A stretch of 64,000 bases of DNA. Origin: Bryobacterales bacterium F-183 (lineage in GTDB: Bacteria; Acidobacteriota; Terriglobia; Bryobacterales; Bryobacteraceae). Positions 1,085 to 25,103 of the stretch are shown piece by piece. Location: positions 3,100,001 to 3,164,000 of the forward strand of contig AP025252.1 of NCBI GenBank assembly GCA_016865505.2. The letters run 5' to 3'. The first letter of the stretch is position 1. The number at the start of each line of letters is the position of its first letter. The notes below the pieces were generated by a model. The model made no database searches. It had not been told where the DNA came from and worked only from the letters and a program-made list of their open reading frames with translations. The position numbers and the translations under genes were made by a program.

Positions 1085-2491
1085 TTAGCTGAGGCTCCTG
1101 ACGTCGGTGACTTTGCCGGTGACGGCCGATGCTGCCGCCGTGAGCGGGCTGGCGAGGAAGGTACGGCCGCCCTTGCCTTGGCGTCCTTCAAAGTTGCGGT
1201 TGGACGTGGACACGCTGTATTCGCCGGGGCTCAACTGGTCGCCGTTCATGGCGATGCACATCGAGCAGCCAGCTTCGCGCCAATCTGCGCCTGCTTCCTT
1301 GAACACCTTGTCCAGACCTTCTGCTTCGGCCTGACGCTTGATGATCTGTGAGCCTGGGACCACCATCATGCGAACTCCGGGAGCGACCTTGCGGCCTTTC
1401 AACACCGAGGCCGCGGCGCGGAGGTCCGACATGCGGCTGTTGGTGCAGCTGCCGACGAACACGACGTTGACGGGCTGTCCGGTGAGGGGCTTGCCGGCTT
1501 CGAGGTTCATGTACTGGAGGGCCTTGATGAGCGAATCGCGTTCGAGCGGGTCGCTGTAGGAGGCCGGGTCCGGGATGTGGCCGCTGATGGGCATGCCCAT
1601 GCCGGGGTTGGTGCCGAAGGTGATCATTGGCTCCAACGCGTCGGCGTCGATGGTGACGGACTTGTCGTAGGTGGCGCCGGGGTCGGTGGGGAGTTGCTTC
1701 CAGCGCTCGACGGCGGCGTCCCAATCGGCGCCCTTGGGGGCGTAGGTACGGCCCTTGAGGAATTCGAAGGTCGTTTCGTCCGGGGCGATGAGGCCGGCGC
1801 GGGCGCCTGCTTCGATGGCCATGTTGCAGACCGTCATGCGCTCTTCCATGCTCAGCGAACGGATGGCCGAACCGGTGAACTCGAAGACGCAGCCCGTGCC
1901 GCCGCCGATGCCGATCTTGGCGATCAGCGCGAGGATGATGTCCTTGGCCGAGACGCCGGGCTTGAGTGTACCGTCGACGCGGACTTCGTAGGTCTGCGAC
2001 TTTTGCTGCAGCAGGCACTGCGTCGCAAGGACGTGTTCGACCTGCGAGGTACCGATGCCGAAGGCCAGCGCACCGAACGCGCCGTGGGTGGCCGTATGAG
2101 AGTCACCACAGACGACCGTCATGCCCGGTTGGGTGAGGCCGTGCTCGGGTCCGATGACGTGGACGATGCCCTGCTTTTCGTGCTTGTAGCCGAAGTGGGG
2201 GATGCCGAATTCGGTGCAGTTCTTTTCAAACTGATTGATCTGCGTTTCCGCCACCGTGTCGAGGATGGGCAGCGAGAAGGAGTGAGTCGGGCTCGAATGG
2301 TCGACAGTTCCGAACGTCAGGTCCGGACGGCGAACCTTTAAGCCGCGCTCGCGCAAGCCGCTGAAGGCCTGCGGGGAAGTGACTTCGTGCACCAGGTGGA
2401 GATCGATGTAGATCAACGCCGGGGCGCCGGGATTTTCGGCGACCAGGTGCTGGTCCCAGATCTTTTCAATGATTGTGCGTGGCTTCGACAT
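1085..2491 (-). CDS. leuC: 3-isopropylmalate dehydratase large subunit LeuC
   Basis: This is the iron-sulfur subunit of isopropylmalate isomerase, 468 residues, the usual length. The [4Fe-4S] ligands are visible as VGSCTNSR (about residue 350) and the CSMC pair (about residues 407-410). The N-terminal substrate region [20 protein letters not shown] is intact. Its ATG overlaps the leuB stop codon (TAATG), so translational coupling is expected, and leuD follows after 3 nt. The product works with LeuD in the cytoplasm. Confidence 0.96.
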
Positions 2492-3555
2492 TAGATGGCC
2501 TCACAAACTGCATTGCCGACTTCTTCCGTCGTCGCAGGGGTGCCCTTGGGACGGAGGTCGGCGGTGACCTTGCCGCTATCGAGAACCTTCTCGACCGCAG
2601 CGTAGACGGCCTGGGCTTCGGCCTTGAGATTGAAGCTGTATTCGAGCATCGCGGCGATGGAGCCGATGGCCGCCATGGGGTTCGCCTTGTTTTGTCCGGC
2701 GATGTCGGGGGCGGAGCCGTGAACGGGTTCGTACAGGCCCTTTTCGTCACCGAGCGAGGCCGAGGGCAGCATGCCGATGGAGCCGGCAAGCACTGCGCCT
2801 TCGTCACTGAGGATGTCGCCGAACATGTTTTCGAGCAGTACGATGTCAAAGCGCTTGGGAGCGAGGATCAACTGCATGGCGCAGTTGTCGACAAGAATGT
2901 GTTCGAGTTCGCAATCCGGGAACTCCGGCGCGACCTCGTTGACGACCTTGCGCCAAAGCTGCGACGTTTCGAGTACGTTGGACTTGTCGACGCTTGCGAC
3001 CTTCTTGCGGCGCTGGCCGGCCAGCTTGAACGCCATGCGAGTGACACGGGCGATTTCCTTGCGCGTGTACGTCATGGTGTTGGTGCCACGCTCGTCGTCA
3101 CCGCTGCCTTCAATACCGCGGGGCGTGCCGTAGTAGATGCCGCCGGTGAGTTCGCGCAGGATGATCATGTCCACGCCGTCGATCAGGTGGTTCTTGAGCG
3201 GCGAGGATTCAAGCAGGGACTTGTACGACCGCACGGGGCGCAGGTTGCCGTACACGCCGAGCAGCTTGCGCAGGGCCAGCAGACCGCGCTCGGGGCGCTT
3301 TTCCGGCGGCCAGTTGTCGAACTCGGGCAGACCAAACGCACCCATTAAGGTGGCGTCGGCTTTGAGGGCGAGGTCGGCGGTTTCCTGGGGCAGGGGAGTG
3401 CCGGTCTTGTGGATGGCGATGCCACCCATGAGGCCTTCGGTGAGGGTCAACGTGTGACCGAACTTCTTGGTTACCGTTTCAAGTACGCGGACGGCTTCGC
3501 GCGTGACTTCTACCCCGATTCCGTCACCGGGGAGAATGCAGATGTTCAGATTCAT
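2491..3555 (-). CDS. leuB: 3-isopropylmalate dehydrogenase LeuB
   Basis: LeuB is an NAD-dependent oxidative decarboxylase that converts 3-isopropylmalate to 2-oxoisocaproate; in citramalate-pathway organisms it also acts on 3-methylmalate. The 354-residue protein starts with the family pattern [14 protein letters not shown] and carries the ELTGGIYYG segment and the [16 protein letters not shown] cofactor region. It lies between leuA (3-nt gap) and leuC (1-nt overlap). Nothing in the sequence looks abnormal. Confidence 0.96.
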
Positions 3556-3558
3556 TGG

Positions 3559-4740
3559 TTAGTCGGCCTTAGCGGCAGCGGCGGCAGAGGAAGCTTCCTT
3601 GACGGCCGCAATCATCTCCAGAATTTCGTCGTTCATGACACCCTTCTTGGTGTCGGCGAGCGCGGTGAACTTGGTGTACACCTGGTGGAGTTCTTCCTTG
3701 GTGAGAACAAAACCCAGGTCCTCGCAGCGCTTGCTAAGGGCGTGGCGTCCGCTGTGCTTGCCGAGGACAAGCTTGCCTTCGGGTACGCCGACGCTCTTGG
3801 GATCTACGATTTCGTAGGTGGACTTGTTTTTGAGGTAGCCATCCTGGTGGATGCCGGCCTCATGGGCAAACGCGTTCTTGCCAACAATCGCCTTGTTGGG
3901 TTGCGGGCCGAAGCTGATGATGGAGCTCAGCAACTGGCTGGCGGAATAGATGTTTTCGGTGACGATCTGCGTCTGGTAGGGGAACTGGTCGTTGCGGACC
4001 TTCATCACCATCACCACTTCTTCGAGCGCGCAGTTGCCGGCCCGTTCGCCGATGCCGTTGATGGTGCATTCAATCTGGCGTGCGCCTGCTTCGACGGCGG
4101 CGAGCGAGTTGGCTACGGCAAGGCCCAAGTCGTCATGGCAGTGTACGCTGACGATGGCGGTGTCGCCCAGCGCCTTGTGGATGCGGCTCACCATCCGCGC
4201 GTACTCGACGGGTACGCTAAAGCCGGTGGTGTCGGGAAGGTTTACCGTGCGTGCGCCGGCGGCGACCACGGCTTTGGAAATCTCTTCCAAATAGTCCAGG
4301 TCGGTACGGGAGGCGTCTTCCGCGGAAAACTCGACGTCGTCGACGTACTGGCGGGCGAGGGTGACGGCGTTCACCGCGTCCTCGAGCACCTGCTGGCGCG
4401 ACTTCTTGAGCTTGTATTCCAGGTGGATATCGCTGGTGGCGATGAAGGTGTGGATGCGCGGGCGCTTGGCGTGCTTGAGCGAACTGGCGGCGCGTTCCAC
4501 GTCCAACTTATTGGAGCGGGCAAGAGCTGCAACCTGCATCCAGGGGTACTGACGGCTGACTGCGTCTACTGCTTCGTAGTCGCCCTCGGAGGCAATGGGG
4601 AAGCCGGCCTCCATAATGTCCACTCCCAGGTCGGCTAACTTAGCCGCCATTTTGAGCTTTTCGGCCACGGTCATGCTGCAACCGGGACTCTGCTCACCGT
4701 CTCTCAGCGTCGTATCAAAGATGTAAACGCGATTGCTCAT
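3559..4740 (-). CDS. leuA: 2-isopropylmalate synthase, short form without regulatory domain
   Basis: The enzyme condenses acetyl-CoA with 2-oxoisovalerate, the committed step of leucine synthesis. The HMGL-type catalytic barrel is complete: [16 protein letters not shown] at the N-terminus, [12 protein letters not shown] with the metal ligands, and [10 protein letters not shown]. The protein is only 393 residues and stops shortly after the linker, in an Ala/Lys-rich tail, so the C-terminal leucine-binding domain (LeuA_dimer) of about 120 residues found in ordinary 500-residue LeuA is absent. leuB starts 3 nt after its stop, so there is no room for a lost domain. The ATG at 4740 is chosen because GAAAGG lies just upstream; an in-frame start at 4797 exists but adds a poor N-terminus. 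First gene of leuABCD. Confidence 0.88.
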
Positions 4741-4838
4741 GGTGATTACCTTTCGCTTTGCTGCTATGCCAATGGGAGAGGCCGGTAAGCATCCCATATT
4801 GAGTTATTATCAGGCGGCCGGTTTGGATTTGGCAAATT

Positions 4839-19680: not shown

Positions 19681-19718
19681 TCAATGTGATGATAAGCCGA
19701 TTTAATCAGACTTCCATC

Positions 19719-19747
19719 TTGCATTTAACTCGCTTGTCGGCTATTCT
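19719..19747 (+). promoter_or_regulatory. Promoter of the ilv leader and operon
   Basis: TTGCAT (19719-19724) and TATTCT (19742-19747) are 17 nt apart. Transcription would start near 19754, leaving about 10 nt before the leader peptide, including AGAGAG as its ribosome binding site. Confidence 0.6.
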
Positions 19748-19764
19748 CAAAAACAGAGAGACGC

Positions 19765-19869
19765 ATGATGCTTACGCCCAACCAACCGGTTCTCAGCACC
19801 ATCCTGCCGCTTTCTCTGGTAGCCGTTCCGCGAATTATCGTAGGGGTCGTACCAGACTACCCCGCCTGA
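19765..19869 (+). CDS. Branched-chain amino acid leader peptide of ilvBNC-cimA
   Basis: A 34-codon open frame starts with two consecutive ATG codons and ends in TGA at 19867. Fourteen residues are Leu (5), Val (6) or Ile (3), concentrated in STILPLSLVAV and PRIIVGVV. AGAGAG lies just upstream as a ribosome binding site. The composition, the position right after a promoter and the terminator directly downstream match the regulatory peptides of ilv attenuators (IlvL-type). The peptide itself is probably non-functional: its translation rate reports on charged Leu, Val and Ile tRNAs. Confidence 0.75.
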   Translation: MMLTPNQPVLSTILPLSLVAVPRIIVGVVPDYPA

Positions 19870-19938
19870 ACGGTTGACGGAATTTCCAACACGAAGAAGG
19901 CCACCGGCGGGGTAAACAGCTCCCACGGTGGTCTTTTT
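19858..19938 (+). promoter_or_regulatory. Transcription attenuator (antiterminator and terminator) of the ilv operon
   Basis: The terminator is GGCCACCG (19899-19906) pairing with CGGTGGTC (19926-19933), extended by an inner GGG/CCC pairing and followed by T5. The competing antiterminator is a perfect 9-bp pairing of TACCCCGCC (19858-19866), the last codons of the leader peptide, with GGCGGGGTA (19906-19914). A ribosome that reaches the leader stop would cover 19858-19866 and allow termination; one stalled at the Ile/Val codons (19834-19848) would leave it free and favour readthrough into ilvB. A shorter GGGGT/ACCCC pairing (19843-19847 with 19859-19863) could act as the pause hairpin. Confidence 0.72.
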
Positions 19939-19978
19939 CGTTTCTTTCCAACGCTTTAGTAGGAGAATTTAAACTCGC

Positions 19979-21739
19979 ATGGCTCAGACCATATCGGGAC
20001 AACAGGCAACGCAGGGACCGCTCTTGAGCGGCGCTCAGATTCTGCTGGAATGCCTGGCGCGGGAAGGCGTCGATTGCATGTTCGGTTATCCGGGCGGCGT
20101 CACCATTCCCTTATACGACGCGATGTACAGCAATCCGCTCAAACACATTCTCGTACGCCACGAGCAGAATGCTGCGTTTGCTGCGCAGGGCTATGCCCGC
20201 GCCACCGGCAAAGTAGGCGTTTGCTGCGCGACGTCGGGACCCGGCGCCACCAACCTTGTCACCGGCCTTGTCGATGCCATGATGGATTCCATTCCAATCG
20301 TCGCTTTGACCGGTCAGGTGTCCACCTCCCTCATCGGTAGCGACGCGTTCCAGGAAGCCGATACCTTCGGCATCACCCGCTCGGCCACCAAGCACAACTT
20401 CATGGTCCAGAACGTCAAGGACCTCGCCCAGGTGATCCACGAAGCGTTCTACCTGGCTGCTTCCGGCCGCCCGGGTCCTGTGCTGGTCGACATCCCCAAG
20501 GACGTCTTCCAGGGCCACACGCACTATAAGCCCGTCGACGAAATCCACCTGCCCGGCTACAAGGTCTTCTCCGAAGGCCACACCGGCCAGATCCGCCGGG
20601 CTGCCCAGATGATTTGGGATGCCAAGCGTCCGTATGTTGTCGGTGGCGGCGGTATCGTCCTCGCCAATGCGGCCAAGGAATTCACCGAACTGGTGGAAAC
20701 CATCGACGCGCCGACCGTAACCACGCTGCTCGGCCTCGGCGGTATCTCCACCGGGCACCCGAACTTCATCTCCATGCCCGGCATGCACGGGTCCTATGCG
20801 GCGAACATGGGCTTGCACGGTTGCGACCTCATCATCGCCCTGGGCATCCGGTTTGACGATCGCGTCACCGGTAAGCTGGCCGCTTTTGCGCCGCACGCCA
20901 AGGTCATCCACATCGATATCGACCCTGCGGAAATTTCGAAGAACCGGCTGGCGGACCTGCCCATAGTCGGTGATTTGAAGCGCGTTCTTCCCAAGCTGAT
21001 CCGCGAGGTGAAGGACCTGAAGGCCACCGAACACGGCAAGAACTACCAGGCTCGCGTGGATTGGTGGAAGCAGATCCGTTCGTGGAAGGAAGAGCACCCG
21101 CTCGAACCCAAGACCTCGACGACCGAGATCAAGCCGCAGCAGTTGATGGTGGAAATCGATAAAATCAGCGGTGGCGAGGCGATTGTTGCGGTGGACGTGG
21201 GCCAGCATCAGATGTGGGCTGCACAGTTCATCAACTTCCATCACCCGCGCCTGTGGTTGTGCTCGGGTGGCTTGGGCTCGATGGGCTTTGGCCTGCCTTC
21301 GGCAATGGGCGCGCAGATGGCGCTGCCGGACAAGCTGGTGTTTGCGATTTGCGGTGACGGCGGCTTCCAGATGTCGCTGCCAGAGCTGGCAACGCTCGTC
21401 AACAATGGCCTGAATGTGAAGATCATTGTGATGAATAACGGCTACCTGGGTATGGTTCGCCAGTGGCAGGAGCTGTTCTACAACAACCGGCTGTCGTCGG
21501 TGGAGTTGTGCTCGTTCCCCGATCCCGCGATGTTGGCCGGCGCGTACGGCTTTAAGGGCCGGACGGTGGAAAGCCCGCTCGATCTGCCGGCGGCCTTGAA
21601 GGAAGCGGTGGAGTACAACGGCCCGTACCTGCTGAACGTGAAGGTGACGCCGAATGAGAACGTCTTCCCGATGGTTCCGGCCGGCGGCGCGCACAATGAG
21701 ATGGTGCTTGGTCCACCCAAGCCGGTGAGCGTGGCGTAG
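19979..21739 (+). CDS. ilvB: Acetolactate synthase large (catalytic) subunit
   Basis: This thiamine-diphosphate enzyme makes 2-acetolactate for valine and leucine and 2-aceto-2-hydroxybutyrate for isoleucine. The 586-residue length is standard. The catalytic Glu lies in RHEQNAAFAAQGYAR, the FAD-binding middle domain is present, and the thiamine-diphosphate/Mg motif is GDGGFQMS with its NN end. AGGAG lies 13 nt before the ATG. It is the first structural gene of ilvBNC-cimA, behind the leader peptide and attenuator; ilvN follows after 19 nt. Confidence 0.96.
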   Translation: MAQTISGQQATQGPLLSGAQILLECLAREGVDCMFGYPGGVTIPLYDAMYSNPLKHILVRHEQNAAFAAQGYARATGKVGVCCATSGPGATNLVTGLVDAMMDSIPIVALTGQVSTSLIGSDAFQEADTFGITRSATKHNFMVQNVKDLAQVIHEAFYLAASGRPGPVLVDIPKDVFQGHTHYKPVDEIHLPGYKVFSEGHTGQIRRAAQMIWDAKRPYVVGGGGIVLANAAKEFTELVETIDAPTVTTLLGLGGISTGHPNFISMPGMHGSYAANMGLHGCDLIIALGIRFDDRVTGKLAAFAPHAKVIHIDIDPAEISKNRLADLPIVGDLKRVLPKLIREVKDLKATEHGKNYQARVDWWKQIRSWKEEHPLEPKTSTTEIKPQQLMVEIDKISGGEAIVAVDVGQHQMWAAQFINFHHPRLWLCSGGLGSMGFGLPSAMGAQMALPDKLVFAICGDGGFQMSLPELATLVNNGLNVKIIVMNNGYLGMVRQWQELFYNNRLSSVELCSFPDPAMLAGAYGFKGRTVESPLDLPAALKEAVEYNGPYLLNVKVTPNENVFPMVPAGGAHNEMVLGPPKPVSVA

Positions 21740-21758: not shown

Positions 21759-22337
21759 ATGATCCAGATCATTTCTCTTTTAGTGGAAAATAAGCCGGGC
21801 GCGTTGATGCGCATCACCGGTCTGCTGACGGCCCGCAACTACAACATCGAAAGCCTGACGGTGGCGCGGACCCTCGATCCCGATCTGTCGCGGATGTCGA
21901 TCGCGGTGGATGTGGACCCGAAGCTGCGGCAGCAGGTGGTCAAGCAGATGAATAAGCTCGTGAACGTACTGCAGGCGTCGGATCTCACCGACGGTCCGGC
22001 AGTGGCTCGCGAACTGGTGTTGCTGCGCGTTCGCACGGCGATCGAAAATCGCACGGCGGTGCTCAAAGAAGCAGAGATCTTTGGGGCGCGCGTGGTGGAT
22101 TCGTCCACCGAAGGCTTTGTGCTCGAAGCGACGGGCGATGCCGAGAAATTGGACACGTTTGTCGATCTGATGCGAGCGTATGGCGAGATCGAAGTAACGC
22201 GTTCGGGCGTAGTCGCAGTAACGCTGGAGAACAAAAAATTACGATTGTCCCCGCCGGTGCCGGCCCCGTCCTCCGGAGTTGTATACGAAGGAGAAGAAGA
22301 GGCAGCAGCAGCGGCAGTGGATGGAGTTTTACGGTAA
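21759..22337 (+). CDS. ilvN: Acetolactate synthase small (regulatory) subunit
   Basis: The 192-residue regulatory subunit binds valine and activates IlvB. The N-terminal ACT domain is clear ([20 protein letters not shown], then NYNIESLTV), followed by the C-terminal ALS small-subunit domain ([25 protein letters not shown]). The last 20 residues are an acidic, Ala-rich tail ([12 protein letters not shown]). It follows ilvB by 19 nt. Confidence 0.94.
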
Positions 22338-22399: not shown

Positions 22400-23425
22400 A
22401 TGCCAAGAAGATTTTACGAGAACGATGGAAGTCTCGACCTGCTTCGGGACAAGACGATTGCGATTATCGGCTACGGCAGCCAGGGACATGCGCACGCGCT
22501 GAATTTGCGCGATAGCGGCCTGAATGTCGTGGTCGGCCTGTACCCGGGCTCCAAGTCCGCGGCCAAGGCCGAAGCCGCCGGCTTGAAGGTGATGTCCACC
22601 GCCGATGCCGCCAAGGCTGCCGACGTGATCATGATCCTGGTGAGCGATCACATCCAGGCAGACCTGTACGAGAACGACATCAAGCCGGGTCTCGCGCCGG
22701 GCAAGACGTTGATGTTTGCCCACGGGTTCAACATCCACTTTGGATTCATCAGCGCGCCGGAAGGCGTGGACGTGAGCATGGTGGCTCCCAAGGCCCCCGG
22801 ACATCGCGTACGCGAACTGTATGTGGACGGCGTTGGCGTTCCTGGATTGGTGGCGGTGCATCAGAATGCATCGGGTAAGGCGCTGGAGCAGGGTTTGGCG
22901 TACGCCAAGGGCATCGGCTGCTTGCGCGCTGGCGTAATCGAAACCAACTTCAAGGAAGAGACCGAAAGCGATCTGTTCGGCGAACAGGCTGTGCTTTGCG
23001 GCGGCGCTGCGGAACTCATCCGCGCGGGCTTTGAGACTCTCGTCGAAGCTGGCTATGCCCCGGAAATCGCGTACTTCGAGTGCTTGCACGAGTTGAAGCT
23101 GATTGTCGATCTCATCTATGAGGGCGGCTTGAGCTACATGCGTTACTCGGTGTCCGACACGGCGGAATACGGCGATTACACGCGTGGTCCTCGCGTTGTG
23201 ACCGATGAGACTCGCAAGGAGATGAAGAAGATCCTTGCCGAGATCCAGTCGGGCCAGTTCGCTAAGGAATGGATCGGCGAGAACAAGGCCGGCCGTGCGA
23301 AGTTCCTGGGCATGCGCGCGGGTCAGGAAAAGCAGTTGATCGAAACCGTCGGCGCGGATCTGCGCTCGATGATGACGTTCCTCAAGAAGAAGAAAGAAGC
23401 GGGCGTACCTGTAAACGCTCAATAA
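22400..23425 (+). CDS. ilvC: Ketol-acid reductoisomerase
   Basis: The enzyme rearranges and reduces acetohydroxy acids to dihydroxy acids with NADPH and Mg2+. The 341-residue class I form has the Rossmann motif [17 protein letters not shown] near residue 25 and the knotted C-terminal domain with metal ligands around [17 protein letters not shown] and ECLHELK. It is the third gene of the ilv operon. ilvD, the next pathway enzyme, is not in this window. Confidence 0.96.
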
Positions 23426-23492: not shown

Positions 23493-25103
23493 ATGAAGAT
23501 CTTTACCTTCGATACAACCCTCCGTGATGGCACGCAAGGCGAGGCCGTTTCCTTTTCTGTGGATGACAAGCTGATTATTGCGCAGAAACTGGATGAGCTG
23601 GGGATTGACTATATTGAGGGCGGCTGGCCGGGTTCGAACCCGAAAGACAAAGACTTTTTCCTTCGCGCGCAGACCGAACTGAAGCTGAAACATGCCCGTC
23701 TGGTGGCCTTCGGCGCCACGCGGTTCGCGAAGAATCCTGTGGATCAGGACCCCAGCGTACGCATGCTGGTGGAGGCGGGTACGCCGACGATTTCGATCTT
23801 CGGCAAGAGCTGGGATTTTCACGTCACCCGCGCGCTGGGCATTCCGCTCGAAGAGAATCTGAAGCTGATCAGCGAAACAGTGTCGTACCTGAAGTCCCAC
23901 GGCAAGGAAGTGGTGTACGACGCGGAGCACTTCTTTGACGGCTACAACGCGAACCCCGAATACGCGCTGTCGACCTTGCAAGCCGCCAAGGATGCAGGCG
24001 CCGATGTGCTTTGCCTGTGCGACACCAATGGCGGCAATCTGCCGGATCGCGTGGCCGAGGTTTGCGCCATCGTACGCAAGCGGTTTGATGGGGTGCTGGG
24101 CATCCATCCGCACAACGATACGGATTGCGCGGTGGCGAATGCATTGGCCGCCGTGGACCAGGGCTTTACGCACGTGCAGGGTACGTTCAACGGGTACGGC
24201 GAGCGTTGCGGCAATGCCAACATCTGTTCGCTGATCGCGAATCTGGAATTGAAGCTGGGGCATACGACGATTGGCCGGGACAAGCTGGCGAATCTGACGC
24301 CGGTGGCTCGGTATATCGCCGATCTGGCGAACCTGAAGGTGCCGAACGGGCAGGCGTACGTCGGACAGTCGGCCTTTGCGCACAAGGGCGGCATCCACGT
24401 CAGCGCGATCATGAAGGACTCGGCGACATACGAGCACACCAAGCCCGAGTACGTCGGCAACCGCCAGCGCGTGTTGCTGAGCGACATGTCGGGCCGGTCC
24501 AACGTGTCGTACAAGCTGGAGCAGCATGGCCTTGCGGGAGTCAGCGACGCGGGCCGCCGGGAGTTGCTGGACCGCATCAAGCAGATGGAGTTCCAGGGCT
24601 ACGATCTGGAAGCGGCGGAAGGTACGTTTGAGCTGCTGGTACGGCAGGCGCTGCGTCCGGGCGTGCAGTTTTTTGAGACGATCGGGTTCGACGTGACGAC
24701 GCGCATGATCGGGTCGTACAACACGATCACGACGGCGACGACGACCTTGAAGCTGGACGACAACGTGCATACGGCGACGGCGCAGGGGCATGGTCCTGTG
24801 AACGCGCTGGACATCTGCCTGCGGCAGTGCCTGGCGACGCGGTATCCGGCGATCAGCGAAGTGGAACTGACGGACTACAAGGTACGAGTGCTGGATTCGC
24901 GCAAGGGTACGGCGGCGAAGGTACGCGTGCTGATTGAGTGGACGGACCATAAGAAGAGCTGGTCGACAGTTGGTGTGTCGGAGAACGTGATTGAGGCTAG
25001 CTGGCTCGCCTTGGTGGATGGCATCAAGCTGGAGTTGATGCGGTTGACGGACAAGGATGAGTCGGTGTCGAAAGCGGTGGAAGACTACTGCTGGGGCGTT
25101 TAG
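23493..25103 (+). CDS. cimA: (R)-citramalate synthase
   Basis: CimA condenses pyruvate with acetyl-CoA to citramalate, the first step of threonine-independent isoleucine synthesis. The 536 residues carry the HMGL-like barrel ([47 protein letters not shown]) and a C-terminal LeuA-type regulatory domain (from about residue 400) that in characterised enzymes senses isoleucine. EGGWPGSNPKDKDFF and the length separate it from LeuA. It is the last gene of the ilv operon, 67 nt after ilvC, and its TAG overlaps the convergent stop codon through TTAG. Confidence 0.9.
   Translation: MKIFTFDTTLRDGTQGEAVSFSVDDKLIIAQKLDELGIDYIEGGWPGSNPKDKDFFLRAQTELKLKHARLVAFGATRFAKNPVDQDPSVRMLVEAGTPTISIFGKSWDFHVTRALGIPLEENLKLISETVSYLKSHGKEVVYDAEHFFDGYNANPEYALSTLQAAKDAGADVLCLCDTNGGNLPDRVAEVCAIVRKRFDGVLGIHPHNDTDCAVANALAAVDQGFTHVQGTFNGYGERCGNANICSLIANLELKLGHTTIGRDKLANLTPVARYIADLANLKVPNGQAYVGQSAFAHKGGIHVSAIMKDSATYEHTKPEYVGNRQRVLLSDMSGRSNVSYKLEQHGLAGVSDAGRRELLDRIKQMEFQGYDLEAAEGTFELLVRQALRPGVQFFETIGFDVTTRMIGSYNTITTATTTLKLDDNVHTATAQGHGPVNALDICLRQCLATRYPAISEVELTDYKVRVLDSRKGTAAKVRVLIEWTDHKKSWSTVGVSENVIEASWLALVDGIKLELMRLTDKDESVSKAVEDYCWGV

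Follow-up and report, generated by a model that had tools for sequence, protein, structure and literature searches.

A probable ribosome-mediated attenuator ahead of ilvBNC-cimA in Bryobacteraceae, and how its leader codons relate to the gene downstream

Whether the DNA ahead of ilvB in Bryobacterales bacterium F-183 works as a transcription attenuator, in which a short leader peptide reports the supply of branched-chain amino acids, is the question raised by this locus. An earlier note, made from the sequence alone, had proposed such a device. We analysed the window (the whole stretch of 64,000 nucleotides, contig AP025252.1, positions 3,100,001 to 3,164,000), followed the locus through related genomes, and compared leaders at different genes of the pathway.

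Parts of the ilvB leader region

The genes downstream were identified with NCBIfam equivalog models, and all four scored above cut-off (Table 1), in agreement with the ilvBNC-cimA operon that the earlier note had named. Direct reading of the sequence placed the proposed promoter hexamers, TTGCAT (19719-19724) and TATTCT (19742-19747), 17 nt apart. The leader ORF opens with an ATG at 19765 and closes with a TGA at 19867-19869 (translation MMLTPNQPVLSTILPLSLVAVPRIIVGVVPDYPA), and 5 Leu, 6 Val and 3 Ile make up the 14 of 34 codons that had been counted before. The terminator with its T5 was likewise borne out: its segment has a folding energy of -33.7 kcal/mol (z -7.5), and none of 200 dinucleotide shuffles equalled it. 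The segments 19858-19866 (TACCCCGCC) and 19906-19914 (GGCGGGGTA) are fully reverse-complementary, which gives the perfect 9-bp antiterminator of the earlier note, with its 3' arm inside the terminator. The whole leader (19757-19945) folded with z -3.5 (1 of 200 shuffles as good), the antiterminator segment taken by itself gave a moderate z of -2.5 (4/200), and the possible protector segment alone was at chance level (z +0.6, 146/200). The 3' end of the terminator lies about 20 nt ahead of the ilvB AGGAG and does not mask it.

Table 1. Features of the leader region and operon, in window coordinates
Feature	Position	Strand	Basis
Promoter CTTGCATTT-N15-TATTCT (= TTGCAT, 17 nt, TATTCT)	19718..19747	+	conserved element in family loci
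Leader peptide ORF, 34 codons, Ile/Val control codons towards 3' end	19765..19869	+	sequence and conservation
Control codons Ile-Ile-Val-Gly-Val-Val, codons -11 to -6 before stop	19834..19851	+	position-specific Ile/Val enrichment, 34 family and 13 order loci
Possible protector segment 1 (GGGGT), partner 19859-19863	19843..19847	+	present in computed folds
Antiterminator 5' arm (segment 2), last three leader codons, beside stop	19858..19866	+	sequence, conservation, covariation
Antiterminator 3' arm (segment 3), within terminator hairpin	19906..19914	+	sequence, conservation, covariation
Intrinsic terminator hairpin, T5 at 19934-19938	19891..19941	+	z -7.5; 0/200 shuffles as good
ilvB, acetolactate synthase large subunit	19979..21739	+	TIGR00118, 774 bits vs cut-off 538
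ilvN (ilvH), acetolactate synthase small subunit	21759..22337	+	NF008864, 181 bits vs cut-off 119
ilvC, ketol-acid reductoisomerase	22400..23425	+	NF004017, 547 bits vs cut-off 336
cimA, citramalate synthase	23493..25103	+	TIGR00977, 682 bits vs cut-off 450

Counted back from the last base of the stop, control codons -11 to -7 lie at a distance of 22-36 nt, and segment 2 runs up to the stop codon. A ribosome covers about 12 nt downstream of its A site; with this footprint, a ribosome stalled at the control codons would free segment 2, and one terminating at the stop would cover it.

The window also holds a leuA-type gene at 3559-4797 on the minus strand, whose TIGR00973 match is below cut-off, followed by an ORF at 2491-3555 (-) that resembles leuB. 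No leader was seen upstream of this leuA-type gene (L199). A codon-density scan upstream of leuA at 13 close-relative loci, one of them (L197) wrongly anchored, found none with at least 6 of 8 Ile/Leu/Val residues. The same scan upstream of trpE covered 13 loci; the anchor of L213 was wrong, and nine matches (L215-L223) start inside the protein.

Conservation in the family, the order and the phylum

IlvB was located in 61 genomes, 37 of them from the same family; 34 of these have intact upstream DNA, and three (G004, G017 and G024) were left out because the ilvB start is missing. The results showed a leader, an antiterminator and a U-tract terminator ahead of ilvB in 34/34 family loci, so the leader ORF and pairing expected in close relatives are conserved throughout the set. 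Each family locus carries a short ORF with an Ile/Val-rich end, its final codons mostly Pro (29/34) and Ala (32/34), and a hairpin (-19.9 to -39.2 kcal/mol) whose following 7 nt include 4 T or more. A density of 7 or more Ile/Leu/Val among 12 residues was reached in 26/34 family regions, compared to 2/34 reverse strands and 1.3% of shuffles. For L015, L021, L032 and five order loci the leader stop was assigned manually. A Bryobacterales contig (L035, CALMAV010000446.1) has an ilvB-type promoter (CTTGCATAAAA...) and no such leader or terminator, an apparent loss of the attenuator, and L036, one of the nearest named contigs (70-75% IlvB identity as a group), bears the complete element.

Outside the family, 13 loci of the order were fetched from 20 genomes. 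A Pro-Gly-stop leader end was present in 12/13 and a convincing terminator hairpin in 8/13. None of the 13 regions reached 7/12 Ile/Leu/Val; 8 had 6 and 4 had 5, and reverse strands had at most 5. Five loci of genus g38 (L122, L123, L125, L126 and L128) keep the leader end and pairing segments and have no convincing U-tract hairpin; in another g38 genome (G040), locus L235 has the leader, the pairing segments and a T6 tract.

The control codons hold a register counted from the stop. In the 34 family loci, Ile occurs at -11 (18), -10 (17), -9 (21) and -6 (16) and Val at -7 (27) and -5 (24), with Leu rare at these positions; in the 13 order loci, Ile occurs at -10 (13) and -9 (10) and Val at -7 and -5 (13 each). 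The earlier note had named conservation of Leu, Val and Ile codons in relatives as a supporting sign; it is seen here for Ile and Val. Because Ile and Val codons keep a fixed register at -11 to -5, the comparison supports a signal made of Ile/Val more than of Leu, whose presence would be incidental. Codon choice in the leaders also differs from that of 11 window genes: ATT makes up 58% of Ile codons (vs 22%), GTA 53% of Val codons (vs 16%) and GTG 4% (vs 41%).

Pairing of the antiterminator was assessed by a per-position covariation count, with a register selected for each sequence separately, under real and under swapped partners (n = 41; L010, L014, L121, L122, L125 and L128, 6 of 47, left out). 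Paired cells amounted to 89.6%, compared to 80.7% (sd 1.1) with swapped partners, and two-sided cells numbered 27, compared to 17.1 (sd 3.1); 0/500 swaps reached the observed value in either measure. Weaker measures on the same 41 sequences were reached more often, in 17/500 swaps for extra pair types and 50/500 for positions with a two-sided change. The count replaced whole-segment swaps, which were uninformative in the family and order, where 7/34 and 2/10 loci fell in the best 5%, and did better in other families (6/12). Against synonymous recoding with assumed codon weights, the antiterminator had a modest advantage (mean z -1.0, 3/44 below 0.05), because the Gly-Pro-Ala ending of the leader itself encodes the pairing.

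A protector hairpin (1:2) is present in the classic trp, his and ilv leaders. One can be formed here; it was not supported as a conserved part, being at chance level against shuffles and not kept beyond codon constraint (against synonymous recoding, the family had a mean z of -0.86 and the order one of +0.45, 9/47 below 0.05). The covariation anticipated in three pairings was thus found for the antiterminator, and the protector is not conserved.

The promoter read by the earlier note proved to be a recurrent element. CTTGCATTT with at most one mismatch occurs in 34/34 family loci (22 exact), compared to 2/34 reverse-strand controls, a test that is not independent since the element was first spotted by eye in the consensus-promoter scan output of the same loci. 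TAnnnT follows TTGCAT by exactly 17 nt in 29/34 family loci, and a mid-spacer CTTnT recurs too. The family consensus reads CTTGCATTTnnnnnrCTTnTnnnnTAnnCT (window 19718-19747, L004-L033, L114-L116 and L133). Its full exact pattern (CTTGCATTT...CTTnT...TAnnCT) was found once, at ilvB, in 4/9 genomes searched and was absent from the other five; in the window's genome it matches once. Locus L007 has a 9-mer match that is not the likely promoter, and the variant CTTGCATAAAA is seen there and at several ilvB loci of genera g9, g217 and g224. Outside the family the element was not found in the order (2-4 mismatches in 13/13 loci), and among 12 separate cimA copies (described below) none has the exact 9-mer and L248 has it with one mismatch. 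Measured against the consensus promoter, the one in the window looks weak (7/12 bases); the consensus scan lists none here and shows no excess in family loci (1/34 at 9/12 or better; shuffles 9.4%). The specificity of the element exceeds the needs of a usual -35 box, and it is possibly the binding site of a regulator.

A covariance model (R1) was built from 42 sequences; the alignment behind it (A1) leaves out the five g38 loci without a convincing hairpin (5/47). With E-values that are rough, R1 matched at E ≤ 1e-5 in 205/237 family genomes, 137/148 good-quality genomes and 73/76 genera, counts in which 34 genomes match by construction, having supplied training sequences. No R1 match was found in 32/237 family genomes, some of them incomplete. 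Six weak matches (G002:C35, G058, G008:C20, G015:C211, G014:C135 and G036:C264) lack an Ile/Val-rich leader where one is usually located and are read as ordinary terminators or chance.

Outside the order, 297 genomes of the phylum were searched, and 60 loci were read from 59 of the 150 with a strong IlvB match. At least 7/12 Ile/Leu/Val were encoded in 9/60 regions, compared to 1/60 reverse strands and 0.5% of shuffles. Ten loci from seven other Acidobacteriota families (f64, f16, f75, f26, f74, f36 and f70) carry leader-terminator devices made of an Ile/Val-rich ORF, a T-tract hairpin and a pairing of the leader end with a terminator arm (duplex -13.5 to -31.8). These devices differ in sequence from family to family; the pairing of L150 is broken up, f26 has the device in one of four loci, and two further cases (f43 and f28) are weaker. 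Across these 12 loci the own partner paired at a mean of -21.2 kcal/mol, compared to -13.7 kcal/mol for swapped partners. The device is absent from 10/10 loci of the class-level family f8, where L136 has an Ile/Leu-rich ORF without a terminator, and from three more class-level loci. Ile/Leu-rich ORF ends also lie ahead of ilvB at L054, L084 and L098, on contigs titled Aliifodinibius, Balneolaceae and Balneolales.

Leader codons at cimA, ilvB and leuA

Extra R1 matches sit upstream of other genes of the ilv pathway. Seventeen genomes had more than one match; 16 were re-searched, and the extra match of G002 was read separately. In g9, g217 and g224, cimA has its own attenuator apart from ilvB, at a distance of 2.7 Mb in G009 and 18 kb in G387 and on different contigs in the remaining cases, and G411 (g222) adds one more separate cimA copy with an attenuator. 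We compared the last 15 leader codons at each gene, in genomes picked for more than one R1 match (single-match g217 genomes were left out). In the separate cimA leaders (L242-L248, L250, L251, L226/L253, L257, L258 and L266), Ile outnumbers Val in 13/13 (mean 3.9 Ile and 0.7 Val); at ilvB in g9, g217 and g224 the balance is reversed, with Val ahead of Ile in 12/12 leaders (mean 0.3 Ile and 5.0 Val; 8 of the 12 without Ile). The other family ilvB leaders (n = 33) are mixed (3.3 Ile and 3.4 Val). G411 combines an Ile-rich cimA copy with an ilvB leader that is yet of the mixed kind. The sole leuA copy (L254, G521:C95:5058-5176; n = 1) has 7 Leu, 0 Ile and 0 Val. Three orphan copies (L228, L268 and L255) ahead of acetolactate synthase small-subunit-like genes have Ile-rich leaders. 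G481 has a second match with an equal score and the same leader end; the contig stops after it.

Citramalate synthase works in the isoleucine pathway and LeuA in that of leucine, so the leader codons fit the gene downstream and track its end product. A branch separates the 12 Val-rich ilvB rows from the rest (SH-aLRT 97 in a quick tree that leaves out L236 as too short), and the P of 2e-5 for the codon contrast is therefore not phylogenetically corrected; the contrast appears to come mostly from a single relocation inherited by many descendants, with isolated cases besides. Where a bin is contaminated, the second copy may stem from another organism, which leaves the match between gene and codons unaffected. 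A tentative reading, somewhat short of probable, is that the attenuator serves as a portable sensor module in the order: copies at cimA, leuA and orphan ilvN would re-evolve codons for their own product (Ile, Leu and Ile, respectively), the ilvB left behind would turn to Val, and in parallel the ilvB-specific promoter element would mark a second layer of control.

Proposed mechanism, rival readings and known systems

We conclude that a ribosome-mediated transcription attenuator very probably controls ilvBNC-cimA. The order of events that we infer is as follows. RNA polymerase would start near 19754, and a ribosome would begin the 34-codon leader. With ample charged Ile- and Val-tRNA, the ribosome would reach the UGA at 19867-19869 and cover segment 2, the hairpin at 19891-19941 would form, and transcription would stop near 19938. 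Under a shortage of Ile-tRNA or Val-tRNA, the ribosome would stall in Ile-Ile-Val-Gly-Val(-Val); segment 2, left uncovered, would pair with segment 3 (19906-19914), so that the terminator could not close and the operon would be transcribed. The ribosome-position reading of the earlier note is thus supported, on comparative evidence, by the conserved leader, the Ile/Val codons, the terminator and the covarying antiterminator. In these Acidobacteriota, leader and RNA switch together probably let a stalled ribosome report a shortage of isoleucine or valine.

Three other readings of the same parts were weighed. Leader translation might instead act on ilvB translation or on Rho loading, and the five g38 loci, with leader end and pairing segments in place and no convincing U-tract hairpin, would suit such a scheme; we consider it very unlikely, given the U-tract hairpin in 34/34 family loci and in the g38 genome locus L235, and a terminator that ends ahead of the ilvB AGGAG without masking it. 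A plain terminator beside a chance ORF is still less likely: a constitutive partial terminator would set the operon level and the ORF would go untranslated. Short ORFs do arise by chance, the hairpin is very strong alone, and possible leader starts and lengths vary widely among relatives; a plain terminator, however, gives no reason for the fixed Ile/Val register, the covarying antiterminator or the gene-dependent leader codons.

Direct sensing of tRNA or of a metabolite such as ppGpp, by a T-box or small-molecule riboswitch with the ORF incidental, appears the least likely of the three. Its terminator/antiterminator logic would be identical, and other ilvB genes are under T-box control. According to the part of the source available to us, a ppGpp riboswitch controls some ilvB genes (PMC10272879). 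Against this, the window contains no leader-type Rfam family at gathering score (two tRNAs only), the segment 19650-20000 gives two chance-level Rfam matches at E ≤ 10, and 20 related loci have no Rfam match above gathering score. No Rfam family was matched for a T-box, ppGpp or other riboswitch, and these candidates were rejected. What is conserved is the codons and both arms, with no conserved domain resembling an aptamer, and the leader codons vary with the gene. A Thr_leader match at L147 is sub-threshold (32 bits vs 55).

Among known systems, enterobacterial ilvGMEDA and ilvBN have leader-peptide attenuators, and the earlier note likened the present locus to ilvGMEDA. The likeness in mechanism stands: both have a leader rich in the end product, a mutually exclusive antiterminator and intrinsic terminator, and ilv genes downstream. 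It does not extend to layout or descent, since here the protector hairpin is not conserved and the 5' arm of the antiterminator is made up of the final codons of the leader, next to the stop; the controlled genes, moreover, are ilvBNC-cimA, and the sequence comparison was made through Rfam only.

A comparison within the phylum was provided by a 2010 paper, which, in the part available to us, states that hardly any attenuators predicted in Acidobacteria could be tied to a function, and names leader-peptide systems only for Proteobacteria, Actinobacteria and its own Firmicutes case (PMC2965389). The earlier note knew of no described case; we, too, found no description of a leader-peptide attenuator in Acidobacteriota in the open-access literature, among the matches listed. 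The comparative evidence points convincingly to a known mechanism newly seen in this phylum; priority is not proven, because the ilvB-OMG motif is said to span 'various bacterial phyla' and some of its members may be Acidobacteriota (PMC10272879, as far as available to us). Leader-peptide attenuation would thereby extend to a dominant soil phylum, the family-wide differences between cimA, ilvB and leuA leader codons provide a natural test, of a kind seldom available, of whether control codons correspond to the product, and the family-wide set of leaders makes the codon-register question directly testable.

A further described counterpart is the uORF of Corynebacterium ilvBNC (ilvB-II motif), which shares a branched-chain-rich upstream ORF, a terminator and a proposed ribosome-mediated attenuation; it belongs to a different phylum, and the available part of the report does not mention separate copies matched to cimA or leuA (PMC10272879). 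No Rfam family matched here, and the comparison with ilvB-OMG and ilvB-II is by their description in the available text. The actinobacterial amino-acid attenuators (Seliverstov 2005, PMC1262725, available to us in part) belong to another phylum and are likewise leader-peptide attenuators recognised by comparative genomics.
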